A stretch of DNA of 64,000 nucleotides from Candidatus Saccharicenans subterraneus (GTDB lineage Bacteria > Acidobacteriota > Aminicenantia > Aminicenantales > Saccharicenantaceae): positions 62,001 to 126,000 of the forward strand of contig QUAH01000006.1 in NCBI GenBank assembly GCA_003426165.1. The letters are read 5' to 3'. Both the position numbers and the translations under genes were made by a program. Below the pieces are notes generated by a model that was given only the letters and a program-made list of their open reading frames with translations, did not search any database and had not been told where the DNA came from. Below, in pieces: positions 57,133 through 63,338 of the stretch. Numbering within the stretch: position 1 is the stretch's first letter; every line of letters begins with the position of its first letter.

Positions 57133-58830
57133 TCAATTCCATGAAAAACCGAATAAAGACCATAAAAGATAGCGAAGGGAGTTAACCGGGTTTACTCCGG
57201 CGTTGACCGCCATGACCCGGCTGAAATTGCTTTCCCGGTTGAGACTGTCCACGGCCGTAACCGTGTAATAAAAAGTGGTCTTGGCGGCCAGCAGAACATC
57301 CACGTAGCGAGAATCATAAATAAGACTGCCGTTGATTTTCTGAAAGTTGGCCTGGGGTTCGGTGCTGCGGTAGACATTATAGCCGGCGGCTCCCGGCACC
57401 GTATCCCAGCTAAGGTACACTCCCTTTAGATGATTGAAAATCGAAGCCTGGGTGCCGACAGCCAGGTTGAAGTTTTTTGGCGTTGAAGGATAACCCGGCC
57501 TGATGATCTGGGCCAGGTCCACCAGGCTGATCAACGAGCCGCGGGTGGCCGAGCGGTAAAAATCAAAATTCAGGGTGTCAACGGTGTCCGTGGTTCTATG
57601 GTAATAAGGGTTGGGGACGCTGGCATCCTCAATGGCGCAGAGGGCGGCTATCCCCCGGTCCCAGAAAGAGGCATGGTCCGAATAGACAAAAGAAGCATCG
57701 ATGATTTTTTTCCCGGCCACCGGTCCGTAGAGTGCACTCAGGGCGGCCACCCGGTCCACCAGCCAGCTGGAACTGCGGTTTCCTATTAAGTCCAGGTCTT
57801 CTGGCACCAGGTCGGCATAAGCCACCATGTCCAGGTTGATGACCCCCAGGATATTCTCTGAAGGATTCAACCGCTCCTGGACGTAGCGCAGGCTGCCCAC
57901 CAGCCCCTGCTCCTCGGCCGAGAACAGAATGAACCGGACGGTAAAATCGAACGGCCGACCGGCCAGAATCCTGGCCGCTTCCAGGACCGCCCCGGTGCCG
58001 GAACCATTATCGTCAGCCCCGGGGGCCAGGGTCCAGCGCTGGTCCGAGGTCGAGTCATAATGGGCACAGATGATCACCACCTGTTCCGGGTAAGTCTGGC
58101 CCCGGATTTCCGAAATCACGTTCCGGCAGAGGTAGGTGCTGTAATAAAAATCCTGGAAACTGACCGGAAGACCCAGGCTCGAAAAATAATCGTATATATA
58201 CTGGCCAGCCTGGAGGCAGTTGGCGGTCGGGGCGTATCGCGTTCCGAAGTTCTGCAGGGCGGTGACTCTGGCCCTGAGGTTGTCGGCCGAGACTTCAGCC
58301 GCCAGGAGTTCATAGAGTGTATCCTGAACCTGCCGCCAGCTAAATTCCCCTGGTAGCATCACTCCAGGGGTGAGGGTTTTCCCGCTGGCCGGAAGAAGCC
58401 TTCGCCTGACCGTGACCGGCAGCTCTTCCAGTTCGAACTGGCCCCGGGCTATGAGCAGGTAATCCGAACCCTCGAGCGGCAAGACGGTGAAACGGGAGGT
58501 TATATATTCCAGCTCGGCCGCCCGGCTGATCCTGGCCACCAGGTAAACGAGGCTTCGGTCATAGAAGGCCAGCCGCTTGAACCTGACTCCGCGGCTTCTG
58601 AGTTTAAGAACTTCTTCCCGGTCGAGACGAAGCAGGTAACTCCCTTCCAGCTCCTGCAGGCATTCAATCTTTTCCTGCCAGAGGATGGTTTCCAGGCCGG
58701 CCTGGCCTTTCTGCACCTGGACCAGGAGGAGCGGAGCCGGCTGACTCCCGGGCATAAAACTCAAGCAGGAAAACAGGATAATAAACAGGGCCAGCCGGAG
58801 CCGGCAGGGAGAATTGACATCGCACATCAT
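57133..58830 (-). CDS. Secreted M28-family metallopeptidase with C-terminal fibronectin-like domain
   Basis: A protein of about 565 residues. A signal peptide (about 9-30, cleavage after SQPA) is followed by an N-terminal domain of unclear fold (about 35-190). The M28 peptidase domain covers about 200-450: ICAHYDSTSD with the first zinc histidine, GADDNGSGTGAVLEAAR (metal-bridging aspartate), FSAEEQGLVGS (catalytic and zinc glutamates) and NLDMVAY. A late histidine is in NPYYHRTTDTVDTLN. A fibronectin-type region (about 465-555: VYLSWDTVPGAAGYNVYRS) ends the protein. ATG-ATG at 58830 and 58827 are preferred over the long frame from 59130, which lacks a signal sequence at its start and crosses the promoter. 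Confidence 0.92.
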   Translation of the reverse strand: MMCDVNSPCRLRLALFIILFSCLSFMPGSQPAPLLLVQVQKGQAGLETILWQEKIECLQELEGSYLLRLDREEVLKLRSRGVRFKRLAFYDRSLVYLVARISRAAELEYITSRFTVLPLEGSDYLLIARGQFELEELPVTVRRRLLPASGKTLTPGVMLPGEFSWRQVQDTLYELLAAEVSADNLRARVTALQNFGTRYAPTANCLQAGQYIYDYFSSLGLPVSFQDFYYSTYLCRNVISEIRGQTYPEQVVIICAHYDSTSDQRWTLAPGADDNGSGTGAVLEAARILAGRPFDFTVRFILFSAEEQGLVGSLRYVQERLNPSENILGVINLDMVAYADLVPEDLDLIGNRSSSWLVDRVAALSALYGPVAGKKIIDASFVYSDHASFWDRGIAALCAIEDASVPNPYYHRTTDTVDTLNFDFYRSATRGSLISLVDLAQIIRPGYPSTPKNFNLAVGTQASIFNHLKGVYLSWDTVPGAAGYNVYRSTEPQANFQKINGSLIYDSRYVDVLLAAKTTFYYTVTAVDSLNRESNFSRVMAVNAGVNPVNSLRYLLWSLFGFSWN

Positions 58831-58841
58831 TCTATTCTGGT

Positions 58842-58870
58842 AATTTATGAAATTTGAGGGCGGATGTAAA
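58842..58870 (-). promoter_or_regulatory. Candidate promoter of the M28 peptidase gene
   Basis: TTTACA (58865-58870) and TAAATT (58842-58847) on the minus strand are 17 bases apart. The ATG lies only 11 nt past the -10 box and has no Shine-Dalgarno. Confidence 0.45.
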
Positions 58871-59148
58871 GAACATAACCTATAGCCCGAGTTAGATGAA
58901 GCCGGGCGCCACAACACTGAGCTGGGAAATGTCGGTCTCAGCACCCACCCTTTTCTTCTAATATTATGATACCACGGATAGTTTGTGTGAGCGGAGCGGA
59001 ATATTAAACCAAAAAGCCCCGGCCTGATGAATATTCTGCAACGTTTAACAATCAAAACCAGGGCCCTTTTAGTTTGAATCGGGCTTCGGGGCCACATTCT
59101 CTTCCTCCTCACCTTAAGATCAAATTGCAACAGACTTAATCAATCTGC

Positions 59149-59176
59149 TTGACAAAAATTTTTCTCTGGCTACAAT
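59149..59176 (+). promoter_or_regulatory. Sigma-70 promoter of the trpB2 leader
   Basis: A perfect TTGACA (59149-59154) and TACAAT (59171-59176) are separated by 16 bases. Transcription should start near 59183, two bases before the leader-peptide ATG and about 180 nt before trpB2. Confidence 0.8.
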
Positions 59177-59184
59177 TACCGCTG

Positions 59185-59277
59185 ATGTTGACTTTGAGGA
59201 TGTCCGGTTCAGGTTTCACCAACTTTGATATCGGTGCCTCATTCTGCCTTTCCTCCTGGTTCTGGTGGGCGGCCTAG
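59185..59277 (+). CDS. Tryptophan-rich leader peptide upstream of trpB2
   Basis: A 30-codon frame running from an ATG (59185) to a TAG (59275-59277). The end of the peptide reads CLSSWFWWAA: three TGG codons at 59257-59259, 59263-59265 and 59266-59268. The predicted start of transcription is about two bases before the ATG, so it would be read as a leaderless or near-leaderless message. A second ATG at 59200 would also keep all Trp codons. Trp is the rarest amino acid in most proteins, and three Trp codons in four just before a stop, upstream of a Trp-synthesising gene, is the classical form of an attenuation leader. The peptide itself needs no function. Too short for routine gene callers. Confidence 0.8.
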   Translation: MLTLRMSGSGFTNFDIGASFCLSSWFWWAA

Positions 59278-59360
59278 TCCGCCCTGAGTCTATCTTCGCC
59301 TTCCCACCATATTTTTGAACCGAGTATTTTTCTATTTTCATTTCCAAGCACAGGAGGAAA
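59249..59360 (+). promoter_or_regulatory. Probable translational tryptophan attenuator sequestering the trpB2 ribosome site
   Basis: The continuous arm 59249-59269 can pair without a mismatch with three ordered downstream segments. TTTCCTCCTG (59249-59258) pairs with CAGGAGGAAA (59351-59360), the trpB2 Shine-Dalgarno. GTTC (59259-59262) pairs with GAAC (59317-59320). TGGTGGG (59263-59269) pairs with CCCACCA (59303-59309), which is followed by TATTTTT. All Trp codons lie in this arm. A ribosome waiting there for Trp-tRNA would cover it and leave the trpB2 start site free; a ribosome that finishes at the TAG would let it close. A competing GC stem GGGCGG/CCGCCC (59267-59272 with 59279-59284) shares part of the arm. 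Not verified by folding software. Confidence 0.7.
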
Positions 59361-59363
59361 AAG

Positions 59364-60650
59364 ATGAAAAGATACGATTCCCGGGTGATGGATTACCTGC
59401 CCGAGTATTTTTATAACCTCAAGGCCGACCTGCCGGAGCTTCCACCCCCGCCCCTGAACCCCATGACCCAACAGCCTCTCCGCCCGGAAGAACTGGAACC
59501 GGTCTTCTGCCGCAGTTTTATCCAGCAGGAAATTTCACTGGAACGGTTCATACGGATTCCAGGCAGGGTCCTGGAAGCCTATGCCCGGTACCGTCCCACG
59601 CCTCTGGTTTATGCCTCGGGCCTGAGAAAGTACCTGGACACCCCGGCCCGGATTTTTTACAAGTACGAAGGGGTGGGGCCGGCCGGAAGCCATAAGACCA
59701 ACACCGCCCTGATGCAGGCCTACCTGGCCGGTCAGGAAGGAATAGAAACCCTGACCACCGAGACCGGGGCCGGGCAATGGGGCTCAGCCCTGGCCTTCGC
59801 CTGCAGCCAGTTCGGCCTGCAGGCCCGAATATTCATGGTCCGGTCCAGCTACAGGCAAAAACCGGGCCGCCGGATAATGATCCAGCTGTTCGGAGGCCAG
59901 GTTGTAGAAAGTCCTGGTCCAACCACGGTCTCCGGCCGGAAATATTTCCAGGAAAACCCCGATCATCCCGGCAGCCTGGGTATAGCCATATCCGAAGCGG
60001 TGGAGGCAGCCGTCAGTCAGCCGGCCACCAGGTATTCTCTTGGCTCGGTGCTGGACGCGGTGCTCCTGCACCAGACGGTCATCGGGCTGGAGGCGGTCAG
60101 GCAGTGCCAGGAATTCGGGGTGGAGCCGGACCTAGTGGTTGGCTGTGTTGGCGGTGGCTCCAATTTTGCCGGTTTGAGCTTTCCCTTCATGGCTAAAAAG
60201 CTTCAGGGAAAAAACGGCCAGCGTTTCATAGCGGTCGAGCCCGAGGCCTGTCCTTCCCTGACTGCAGGACAGCTTCGTTATGACCATGGCGATTCGGTCG
60301 GGCTGACTCCCCTGCTCTACATGCACAGCCTGGGTAAGGACTTTGTCCCGCCACCCATCCATGCCGGTGGCCTGCGTTACCACGGGATGGCCCCGCTCGT
60401 GAGTCACCTGGTAAAGCTGGGACTGGTTGAAGCCCGGGCCTATTCCCAGAAGCAGGTCTTTACGGCCGCAGAAATTTTTCTCAAGACCGAAGGTATCCTG
60501 CCGGCCCCGGAATCGGCCCACGCCATCGCCGCGGTCATGGATGAGGCCCTTCAGGCCAGAAAATCAAAAAAAGAAGTTAACATCCTGTTCAATCTTTCGG
60601 GACACGGTTTTCTGGACATCAACGCTTACGAACAGAACGGAGGGAGCTGA
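59364..60650 (+). CDS. trpB2: Tryptophan synthase beta chain, TrpB2 type
   Basis: A protein of 428 residues of the TrpB2 subfamily, which is longer at the N-terminus than TrpB1. The cofactor lysine is K111 in GPAGSHKTNTA, the catalytic glutamate E133 in TTETGAGQWGSALA, and the phosphate-binding loop is VGGGSNFAG. VRSSYRQKPGRRIMIQLFG and LHQTVIGLEA are family marks. TrpB2 joins indole and serine (or phosphoserine) to make tryptophan. No trpA or other trp gene is near, so it probably salvages free indole, a role proposed for stand-alone TrpB2. AGGAGG lies 6 nt before the ATG and is the target of the leader described upstream. Tryptophanase lies 1.3 kb away. Confidence 0.94.
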   Translation: MKRYDSRVMDYLPEYFYNLKADLPELPPPPLNPMTQQPLRPEELEPVFCRSFIQQEISLERFIRIPGRVLEAYARYRPTPLVYASGLRKYLDTPARIFYKYEGVGPAGSHKTNTALMQAYLAGQEGIETLTTETGAGQWGSALAFACSQFGLQARIFMVRSSYRQKPGRRIMIQLFGGQVVESPGPTTVSGRKYFQENPDHPGSLGIAISEAVEAAVSQPATRYSLGSVLDAVLLHQTVIGLEAVRQCQEFGVEPDLVVGCVGGGSNFAGLSFPFMAKKLQGKNGQRFIAVEPEACPSLTAGQLRYDHGDSVGLTPLLYMHSLGKDFVPPPIHAGGLRYHGMAPLVSHLVKLGLVEARAYSQKQVFTAAEIFLKTEGILPAPESAHAIAAVMDEALQARKSKKEVNILFNLSGHGFLDINAYEQNGGS

Positions 60651-60791: not shown

Positions 60792-61766
60792 TCAGTACCT
60801 TATATTCCGGCTCCGCATTTCGAGCCTGACCTTCTCTATGGTCTTTCTGACTTCGTTCATATAATCGGGGGCACAGAGCTGAATAGACTTTTTCAGTCCA
60901 TATTCGGCAATTTCGGTCGCCCGGTCCAGCGGGATATCGATTCCGGCCATTTTTTTGAGGAGCAGAACGCCGGATTGAGCCAGGGATTCGGCCAGGCCTT
61001 TCAAGGCCCTGAACTCGGGCAGTATCAATATGGCCCCGTACTGGACCATGAACCTCCGGAAAAGGACCTCGTTCTCCCTGATGGCTGAGTTGTAATCCGG
61101 GTTGTTGAGGGCGGTTATGAGCAGATTCTGGAAACTCTTGTCCCTGACCACGGCCGCGGCGATAATATCTTCGCCGATCCGGGCATCGACCTTCCTGATA
61201 ATCAGGTCACCGGCCGATTCCACCAGGTTATGGCAGAGCTCGAGGCGCAGGCGGAATTGTCCCGGGTCAGCGTTGTAAAGCCCGAGGGACTCGAAGTAAT
61301 TGTTAATCGTCGGGTCAGCGTTCAGGGCCACCGCCTTGATCATAACGTAACCGGGCTCGATCTCTCCAGGAACCAGGGGAAAATCGTCCGGGGGAGCTAT
61401 GCTCTGGGCCTGGTGATGGGCGGTGAAGTCAGCCCCCCAGACATCGTTATGGGCCACGAAGCCGTAAGCCAGAGCCTTCTGGAAATTGCGGTAGGTGGCT
61501 TTTTCCCAGACAGACATAAAAGCCTCATTACCCGGAGTTCCATGGGTAAAGGCCCTGAGAACGGGGTCGGCATAGAGGTCAAAATTGTAGTTAAAAAGGT
61601 CAGGTGCCAGGCTGCCGTAAAGCTCCTGGAAATCGAGGGCCAGGTAATACCGGCCGGTCTTCTTGGCTATGAAGGCATGGGTGGCCGAGCCCCAGGAAAA
61701 ACCACTGATGACCATGAACATGGTCATGACCAGGACCAGCAAAGCTGAAACCAAGCTTTTTCTCAT
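60792..61766 (-). CDS. Secreted zinc-dependent phospholipase C-like protein
   Basis: A protein of 324 residues. A signal peptide (about 5-23) ends near FSWG. The residues after it, WGSATHAFIAKK, carry the conserved tryptophan and first histidine that bind zinc in the phospholipase C / S1-P1 nuclease fold. Further candidates are GSLAPDLFNYN (aspartate), FTHGTPGNEAF, GFVAHNDVWGADFTAHH (HxxxD) and ELCHNLVESAGD (histidine and glutamate). All expected zinc ligands are therefore present. Substrate is unclear: phospholipids or another phosphodiester. AGGAGG lies 5 nt before the ATG at 61766. Tryptophanase ends 189 nt upstream on the same strand. Confidence 0.85.
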   Translation of the reverse strand: MRKSLVSALLVLVMTMFMVISGFSWGSATHAFIAKKTGRYYLALDFQELYGSLAPDLFNYNFDLYADPVLRAFTHGTPGNEAFMSVWEKATYRNFQKALAYGFVAHNDVWGADFTAHHQAQSIAPPDDFPLVPGEIEPGYVMIKAVALNADPTINNYFESLGLYNADPGQFRLRLELCHNLVESAGDLIIRKVDARIGEDIIAAAVVRDKSFQNLLITALNNPDYNSAIRENEVLFRRFMVQYGAILILPEFRALKGLAESLAQSGVLLLKKMAGIDIPLDRATEIAEYGLKKSIQLCAPDYMNEVRKTIEKVRLEMRSRNIRY

Positions 61767-61955
61767 TTTTGCCTCCTTTTCCAACGATCCTTTTCTAACT
61801 TGGCATCAGGGTTTAGATTCATAATAATTAGACAGCACCGGGAACAATTCCTTGGGAATTTTTTTCGGGGTTTGCCACCACTCGGCCACACCGGCCCGGG
61901 ATATTCAAAACAGGCTGAAAAATTTACCGGCAGAGAAAATCGAAAAGGCCGCGGC

Positions 61956-63338
61956 TCAGACCTCTTCCATCCGGACGGTGAAGTGGCGGAGGTAACGTGA
62001 TTCCCGCACTATGCGCAGGCCCCGGACTTTTTCGCGGTTCCGGTACAGGTCGATTATGGACTCGGCCACGTAGTCCAGGTGGGCGCTGGTATAGACCCGC
62101 CGCGGAATGGCCAGGCGAACCAGCTCCAGCCTGGGGAAGATTTCCTTGCCCGTTTTCTCGTCCTTCCGGGCAAACATTACCCCGCCGATTTCTACCGCCC
62201 TGATGCCGGCCTCGCGGTAGAGGGCCACGGTCAGGGCCCAGCCCGGGTACTGGTGCCGGGGAATATGCGGCAGGAACCTGTCGGCCAGAAGGTAGACGGC
62301 GTGCCCGCCCACCGGCTTGAAAACCGGTACCCCGGCCTCGTCCAGGAGCTGTCCCAGGTAGGCCACCTGGTTTATACGGTATTCCAGGTAATCCTCTTCC
62401 AGGACCTCCTCCAGCCCGCGGGCGATGGCCTCCAGGTCGCGGCCGGCCAGGCCGCCGTAGGTCGGGAAACCCTCGCTCAGGATCAGCAGGTTTTTCAATT
62501 TTTCGGCCAGCAGGTCGTCGTCCACGGTCACGAAGCCGCCGATGTTGACCAGGGCATCCTTCTTGGCGCTCATGGTCGCCCCCTGGCCGTAGGAAAATAT
62601 TTCCTGGGCTGTCTCCAGGATGGACTTTTTTTCATAGCCTTTTTCTCTCTTCTTGATAAAGTAGGCATTCTCGGCAAAGCGACAGGCATCGAAGAAGAAC
62701 GGGATTTTATGCTGCTTGCAGACCTGGCTGACTTCCTTGATGTTCTTGACCGAGACCGGCTGCCCCCCGCCGCTGTTGTTGGTGATGGTCATCATGACCA
62801 GCGGTATTTTCTTGACCCCCTTTTTCTCGATGAATTTCTTCAACTTGTCCACGTCCATGTTGCCCTTGAAAGGATGAATGGAATCCGGGTCGTAGGCGTC
62901 ATCAATGACCAGGTCCACCGCCCTGGCTCCCCGGACCTCAACGTTGGCCCTGGTGGTATCAAAGTGGATGTTGTTGGGAACAAAATCTCCCTTATTGACC
63001 AGGGCTTCAAACAGTATCCTTTCGGCTGCCCTTCCCTGGTGGGTGGGTATGACGTGCTTGAAACAGAAAATATTCTTAACGGCCTCCTCCAGGTGGAAAA
63101 AGTTCCTGGCCCCGGCGTATGATTCATCGCCAATAAGCAATCCCGACCACTGGTTGTCGCTCATGGCCGAGGTGCCGGAGTCGGTCAGCAGGTCGATGAA
63201 AACCTTTTCAGCCGGGATGTTGAAGACATTGTACCCGGCCTGCTTCAGGATGTTTTCCCTCTCCCGGCGGTCAGTCGGCTTTATCCTCTCTACCGTCTTA
63301 ATCCGGAAAGGTTCTACCGGCGCTTTAATTTTTTCCAT
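61956..63338 (-). CDS. tnaA: Tryptophanase
   Basis: A protein of 460 residues of the aromatic beta-eliminating lyase family. PEPFRIKTVE-like start (here VEPFRIKTVERIK), LLTDSGTSAMSDNQW, VIPTHQGRAAERIL and MSAKKDALVNIGG with the PLP lysine are all present. Two positions separate tryptophanase from tyrosine phenol-lyase: the residue before TT in HFDTTR is aspartate, and IRAVEIGGVMF has isoleucine where phenol-lyase carries an arginine. Both match tryptophanase. It splits Trp to indole, pyruvate and ammonia. AGAGG precedes the ATG. There is room for neither a TnaC leader nor a long promoter region, since the upstream kinase ends 67 nt away. Confidence 0.93.
   Translation of the reverse strand: MEKIKAPVEPFRIKTVERIKPTDRRERENILKQAGYNVFNIPAEKVFIDLLTDSGTSAMSDNQWSGLLIGDESYAGARNFFHLEEAVKNIFCFKHVIPTHQGRAAERILFEALVNKGDFVPNNIHFDTTRANVEVRGARAVDLVIDDAYDPDSIHPFKGNMDVDKLKKFIEKKGVKKIPLVMMTITNNSGGGQPVSVKNIKEVSQVCKQHKIPFFFDACRFAENAYFIKKREKGYEKKSILETAQEIFSYGQGATMSAKKDALVNIGGFVTVDDDLLAEKLKNLLILSEGFPTYGGLAGRDLEAIARGLEEVLEEDYLEYRINQVAYLGQLLDEAGVPVFKPVGGHAVYLLADRFLPHIPRHQYPGWALTVALYREAGIRAVEIGGVMFARKDEKTGKEIFPRLELVRLAIPRRVYTSAHLDYVAESIIDLYRNREKVRGLRIVRESRYLRHFTVRMEEV

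Follow-up and report, generated by a model that had tools for sequence, protein, structure and literature searches.

A leader frame with Trp codons upstream of trpB2

The window analysed here is a 64,000-nt stretch of DNA from Candidatus Saccharicenans subterraneus (contig QUAH01000006.1, positions 62,001 to 126,000). It carries a gene for a stand-alone tryptophan synthase beta chain, trpB2, which is preceded by a short frame with Trp codons. The features of this locus, in window coordinates, are as follows.

59149..59176, + strand: sigma-70-like promoter TTGACA-16-TACAAT, with 11/12 consensus matches
59185..59277, + strand: leader frame of 30 codons, with Trp codons at 59257, 59263 and 59266 and the stop codon at 59275-59277
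59249..59258, + strand: pyrimidine arm TTTCCTCCTG, complement of the trpB2 Shine-Dalgarno (SD) region, with support at genus level only
59267..59284, + strand: core hairpin GGGCGG-CCTAGT-CCGCCC, whose stem begins in the last Trp codon and whose loop holds the stop codon
59285..59343, + strand: C-rich, G-poor linker, a possible Rho loading region
59351..59360, + strand: trpB2 SD region CAGGAGGAAA, partner of the arm
59364..60650, + strand: trpB2, encoding a stand-alone TrpB-like tryptophan synthase beta chain of 428 aa, assigned by NCBIfam profiles

The initial annotation had reported a good sigma-70 promoter followed by a 30-codon frame ending W-F-W-W-A-A-stop, and both were borne out by the sequence, with exact coordinates. 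The -35 box (59149-59154) and the -10 box (59171-59176) belong to one of three promoter-like sites within 58700-59700, versus 0.9 expected from shuffles. The frame encodes MLTLRMSGSGFTNFDIGASFCLSSWFWWAA, and its ATG lies 8 nt past the -10 box. The core hairpin, which has no U run, is formed by stem arms at 59267-59272 and 59279-59284. This hairpin, which proved to be class-wide, was absent from the initial annotation, as were the probable near-leaderless start and the likely indole-salvage context described below.

The product of trpB2 scores 647 bits against NF009057 (cut-off 366) and 611 bits against TIGR01415 (cut-off 519). TrpB makes Trp from indole and serine. We found no homologue of TrpA in this genome, which is 93% complete, and none of TrpC (IGPS), which has a homologue in 3 of the 21 genomes searched. 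At the level of the class, a TrpA homologue was detected in 16/141 genomes, many of which are incomplete, while the control search was positive in 14/14 genomes. Since neither a TrpA nor a TrpC homologue was found, the job of TrpB2 here is likely to be indole salvage, with the proviso that a gene not found in an incomplete genome may still exist. A gene of the tryptophanase/tyrosine phenol-lyase family (61956-63338, - strand) lies tail to tail with trpB2, and its product is above the cut-off of PRK13238 and does not reach the TnaA and TPL equivalog models; a tryptophanase-family gene is found beside trpB2 in 18 of 30 loci with flanks of 1.5 kb or less. A switch that acts on indole salvage upon Trp shortage fits this gene setting.

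Between these two genes, the window encodes a protein of 330 aa that probably carries a signal peptide and matches no NCBIfam model (60792-61784, - strand); among the loci L001-L030, it also occurs in the flanks of 10. Elsewhere, it encodes a bacterial large SRP RNA (Rfam RF01854, 154.9 bits; 2070-2336, - strand).

Conservation of the leader and of its hairpin

The class used in our counts is what we take to be Aminicenantia, placed in Acidobacteriota. TrpB2-like genes were detected in 56/99 relatives (E up to 1e-60) and in 72/142 class genomes (E up to 1e-100), and our core set consists of the 53 upstream regions that were read out of 54 class trpB2 genes at 63% identity or more. The initial annotation had suggested looking for a conserved frame with Trp codons upstream of trpB2 homologues, and this was found throughout the class, with a short frame carrying Trp codons close to its end in 53/53 leaders. 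Clustered codons for the product of the downstream gene, the hallmark of amino-acid leader-peptide attenuators, are therefore present in every core leader, in front of a gene that makes Trp.

A promoter matching at least 9 of the 12 consensus positions precedes 44/53 leaders (at least 11/12 in 37 of the 53), while the automatic search returned nothing of 9/12 or better in the other nine. In the 44 leaders with a recognisable promoter, the first ATG past the -10 box shares the frame of the Trp codons in 43 cases and lies at most 12 nt from the box in 40, mostly 7-9 nt, which is approximately the expected transcription start. The frame of the Trp codons is open all the way from the -10 box in 42/44 leaders, versus 6 and 18 of 44 for the other two frames. 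Because the first ATG sits so close to the -10 box, the mRNA of the leader is probably leaderless or near-leaderless.

The hairpin is just as widespread, with a stem GGGCGG-N6-CCGCC(C/T) that begins in the last Trp codon in 52/53 leaders. The exception is L011, in which Gly replaces one Trp codon and the stem pairs a G-run with a C-run. While the codons preceding the Trp pair are variable, the stem is constant and the codon that follows the pair is GCG in 46/53 leaders, the other 7 being variants that differ in spacing or sequence. Since the codons before Trp vary while the stem stays fixed, sensing of tRNA-Trp combined with a constraint on the RNA would fit better than a peptide that senses free Trp. 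When 15 example hairpins were folded, the fraction of shuffles that were as stable was at most 0.05 in 8 and reached 0.29 among the other 7, with 0.11 at this locus. Being conserved over the class, the frame and the hairpin exceed what chance would produce. An outer stem around the core hairpin, which had looked good by eye in some families before testing, was rejected, with p = 0.24 for matched versus permuted flanks (28 representatives) and 3/28 at p ≤ 0.05 against shuffles.

Outside the 53-leader counts, we considered 21 regions upstream of TrpB at 46-57% identity (L043-L050 and L168-L180). At 55-57% identity, 6/13 regions display a Trp leader with a hairpin (L043, L044, L169, L170, L172 and L173, the last with one Trp codon only), and at 46-49% there is no acceptable Trp leader among 8 upstream regions. 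The stem is the same as in the core set in L169, L170 and L173, while it is GGUUCCG/CGGAACC in L043 and L044 and CGGGCU/AGCCCG in L172. In a few distant cases, the structure can thus persist while the sequence changes.

A second set, made of 80 loci in named records and overlapping with the class genome set (L162 and L163 duplicate the genes of L097 and L101), gave a similar picture. The leader is present in 24/24 loci at 66% identity or more with upstream sequence (L081-L104), the other 56 loci being L106, which comes without upstream sequence, and relatives at 60% identity or less. It is retained in the trpA-bearing relatives G003, G004, G014, G018 and G019, and in G009 it lies at a contig end without trpB2. 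A rough scan of the stretches around trpA in three genomes revealed no clear Trp leader. The pattern TGGTGGGCGGN(4-12)CCGCC is present in 49/99 relatives and has a single match in this genome, which precedes trpB2, with none before other genes. Matches upstream of trpB2 span 21 nt; among the others listed, some look like chance. A scan of the phylum returned a match in 121/396 genomes; those outside the class are scattered, and a reversed control matches many of the same genomes. Rfam gave no match in the leader region at gathering scores and seven weak matches below them (E 0.33 to 9.3), none of which is a T-box. Judged by these comparisons, the leader is real and extends well beyond this genome.

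In L132 (Bacteroidales) and L147, we noticed short frames upstream of trpB2 that end in SWSWWWPLAAIHFYI and WNHWSWWPQRAI, respectively, with a hairpin that begins in the last Trp codon and GC-rich repeats behind. These look like separate Trp attenuators before trpB2.

Predicted pairing between the leader and the trpB2 Shine-Dalgarno region

The initial annotation had proposed that 21 bases, 59249-59269, pair without mismatch with three segments and thereby lock the SD of trpB2 until stalling of a ribosome on the Trp codons frees it. The complementarity itself is exact: 59249-59258 with 59351-59360, 59259-59262 with 59317-59320, and 59263-59269 with 59303-59309, bases 59267-59269 of this third helix being shared with the core hairpin. 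The three-part lock was nevertheless rejected as a conserved unit, since the second and third helices are lost even among the five nearest genomes. The second is broken in L002, the third is kept via a G-U pair in L003 and broken in L004 and L005, and neither could be told from chance in these comparisons.

The helix between the arm and the SD fared better within the genus. At this locus, the match of the arm to the SD has p = 0.015 against 200 dinucleotide-shuffled arms. We then compared true with swapped pairs in 48 leaders, in duplexes formed by the SD region and the 35 nt preceding the Trp pair (plus 6). Within the genus, matched duplexes averaged -20.6 kcal versus -19.0 for swapped ones (n = 15, p = 0.0009; p = 0.005 in a thinned set of 10), and there was no signal in the 33 leaders from outside it (p = 0.23); these p values are a guide only because related sequences are not independent. 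Against dinucleotide-shuffled arms, 9/48 leaders reached p ≤ 0.05, eight of them from the genus, while L010, L011, L013, L014 and L016 of the genus gave no single-leader signal. As for the compensatory changes that the initial annotation had expected in its three helices, we found one clear case in the arm/SD helix (UCUGG:CCAGA in L006 versus CCUGG:CCAGG in L008 and L009), which as a single event is thin support, and the other two helices are not conserved. By the duplex comparison, the arm/SD helix exceeds chance for the genus as a group.

The initial annotation had also called for folding with and without the leader segment blocked. We computed the energy needed to open the SD in 53 leaders, with and without masking the footprint of a stalled ribosome. 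The mean cost in the genus fell from 8.0 kcal free to 5.3 kcal masked, versus 6.8 to 6.7 kcal in shuffled leaders, and was 4.9 free and 5.0 kcal masked in the other 38 leaders. In this leader, the cost varies with the point at which the transcript is cut, with free and masked values of 11.9 and 6.4 kcal at +3, 7.9 and 5.5 at +12, 7.3 and 4.9 at +20, 5.7 and 4.9 at +30, 6.7 and 4.9 at +45, and 9.7 and 5.1 at +60; the mask lowers it at 6/6 ends. The SD is unusually closed relative to shuffled leaders in only 4/15 genus members and 7/38 others, and this locus is not among them. With the transcript cut at +30, opening its SD costs no more than in shuffles (the fraction of shuffles as high or higher is 0.72, and 0.18 with arm-only shuffles), and the 198-nt leader as a whole does not fold more stably than shuffles (z -0.27). 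Among the 48 leaders available before five more joined the set, which also served for the duplex test (here with the leader starts of L026, L031 and L097 set by hand), the stall mask decreased the opening cost by more than 1 kcal in 10 and increased it in 5; control masks lowered it in 1 (upstream), 17 (linker) and 18 (stop codon).

Release of the SD by stalling, as originally claimed, is therefore supported for the genus only, where the swapped-arm test, the compensatory change and the mask effect point the same way, and was dropped as a general mechanism because both the duplex and the opening-cost tests were null in other families. Considering the duplex, opening-cost and covariation results together, an SD lock is likely for some members of the genus. 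In such a lock, the class-wide hairpin plays no role of its own. In another genus (L089, L091-L093, L097 and L101), the predicted partner of the SD is the linker (0.74-0.98), unlike in the arm/SD pairing of Saccharicenans, and stalling on the Trp codons would give the SD no relief.

A putative Trp attenuator and its possible outputs

The reading that we favour, and hold to be rather probable, is that the leader is a leader-peptide attenuator that senses the charging of tRNA-Trp and controls the indole-salvage TrpB2, by releasing the SD in Saccharicenans. The strong promoter would start the mRNA at the leader ATG or a few bases from it, and a ribosome would translate the short frame. With ample charged tRNA-Trp, the ribosome would clear the Trp codons, finish at the stop codon, which lies within the core hairpin or immediately after it, and depart, upon which the hairpin would re-form. 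In Saccharicenans, the pyrimidine arm just ahead of the Trp codons would then pair with the SD and keep trpB2 off. When charged tRNA-Trp is scarce, the ribosome would stall on the Trp codons and cover the arm together with the 5' strand of the hairpin, which would leave the SD free. This proposal draws on the promoter, the near-leaderless frame, its Trp codons, the hairpin, the lack of a terminator, the failure to find TrpA and TrpC, and the matching of arm and SD in the genus, all of them features of the sequence. We infer that the ribosome stalls, that control runs in this direction, and that translation is the target instead of transcription or decay. Other genera retain the sensor, and its output there may involve Rho.

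Rho is indeed central to the rival that we take most seriously, while considering it unlikely. Here, once the ribosome has left, Rho would load on the C-rich, G-poor RNA around or behind the hairpin and stop transcription before trpB2, and a ribosome on the Trp codons would mask part of that RNA. This genome encodes Rho (642 bits, cut-off 509), the linker has more C than G in 53/53 leaders and at least twofold more in 32, its G content at this locus is 9.8%, which only 0.4% of 60-nt windows equal or undercut, and intrinsic terminators are lacking, with a terminator-like site between the Trp codons and trpB2 in 1/53 leaders. However, a ribosome stalled on the Trp codons would have most of the linker downstream of it and would therefore leave that part uncovered. 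A low G content would also be expected if the linker must avoid pairing with the hairpin or itself, and the linkers of some families are not G-poor, with up to 32% G. Release of the SD and Rho could each hold in different lineages.

A 5'-proximal stalled ribosome, or the hairpin, might instead control the decay of the mRNA rather than initiation, a mechanism at work in erm leaders. We regard this as improbable, even though the probable 5' end and the stall site are no more than about 80 nt apart and the hairpin is kept class-wide without a partner. Marginally less probable still is transcription attenuation of the classical trpL type, in which terminator and antiterminator hairpins alternate. 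The Trp codons do sit in the 5' arm of a hairpin, like those of segments 1 and 2 of the E. coli leader (as described in PMC8346122), but no terminator is found on the + strand of 58700-59700, and a 5-nt complement of the hairpin 3' arm, the potential antiterminator partner, occurs in the linker of 5/53 leaders only and is absent at this locus. The least probable explanation is a functionless coincidence of an accidental short frame and a pyrimidine tract. Polypyrimidine tracts are often complementary to an SD, and the fold of the whole leader is unremarkable; for the frame and the hairpin, chance is already contradicted by the conservation over the class of the Trp codons, frame, promoter spacing and hairpin.

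Most components of the favoured attenuator have precedents. In Bacillus subtilis, complete translation of the short frame rtpLP, with three Trp codons, prevents translation of rtpA, which encodes anti-TRAP (PMC2311275). The present leader likewise has a short frame with three Trp codons, whose complete translation would prevent that of the next gene, but rtpLP governs anti-TRAP from behind a T-box, while the present leader precedes trpB2, probably starts near-leaderless and has no T-box match in Rfam. Pairing of the SD with leader RNA that a ribosome can cover, as in rtpLP and ermC, gave a signal in the genus and none in the other 33 (duplex) or 38 (opening cost) leaders. In the LEU element of actinobacterial leuA, a leader predicted in PMC1262725, the run of regulatory codons pairs with the SD of the next gene; it has Leu codons and a pseudoknot and belongs to another phylum, whereas here a separate hairpin starts in the last Trp codon and the helix at 59249-59258, mostly ahead of the Trp codons, takes in just two bases of the first one. 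Leaderless polycysteine short ORFs of mycobacteria, in which a run of a single codon attenuates downstream translation (as outlined in the review PMC9031893), differ by amino acid and phylum, and leaderlessness is inferred here from promoter spacing. E. coli trpL, with tandem Trp codons in the 5' arm of a leader hairpin (PMC8346122), and the attenuators predicted before the Corynebacterium diphtheriae trpB2A operon (PMC1262725) need a terminator with a U run, unlike this leader. Finally, a putative Trp leader precedes trpBA of Chlamydia trachomatis, a Trp auxotroph in which these genes convert indole to Trp; according to PMC6504234, transcription attenuation is assumed without robust experimental support, and the operon includes trpR. 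A translational Trp leader, predicted pairing of a codon run with an SD, leaderless attenuator ORFs, predicted attenuators before a trpB2-led operon and a putative Trp leader for indole salvage are thus each known already. In the open-licence full texts searched, we encountered no case that combines them with a constant hairpin in the last Trp codon and the lack of a terminator, no description of a translational Trp attenuator of trpB2 or of one in Aminicenantes, and nothing on Aminicenantes, tryptophan and attenuation together.

More tentatively, and as a possibility that we find doubtful, the leader might be a class-wide near-leaderless attenuator with the hairpin that begins in the last Trp codon as its functional core, in place of a terminator, an antiterminator or a fixed SD lock. 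Opening of the hairpin by the stalled ribosome would be the signal, and a single conserved sensor would serve exchangeable outputs: pairing of the SD in one genus, and something else in the others, such as access of Rho, pausing of RNA polymerase or decay of the mRNA.

If the favoured reading is true, these uncultured bacteria possess a switch for Trp starvation, in a group in which most of the examined genomes have no TrpA homologue (125/141, many incomplete). Two questions are raised by such a switch, namely whether an amino-acid leader with a leaderless start can control translation, and whether one sensor hairpin serves lineage-specific outputs. The host group may live on indole or Trp from its neighbours, and a tryptophanase-family gene adjoins the switch.
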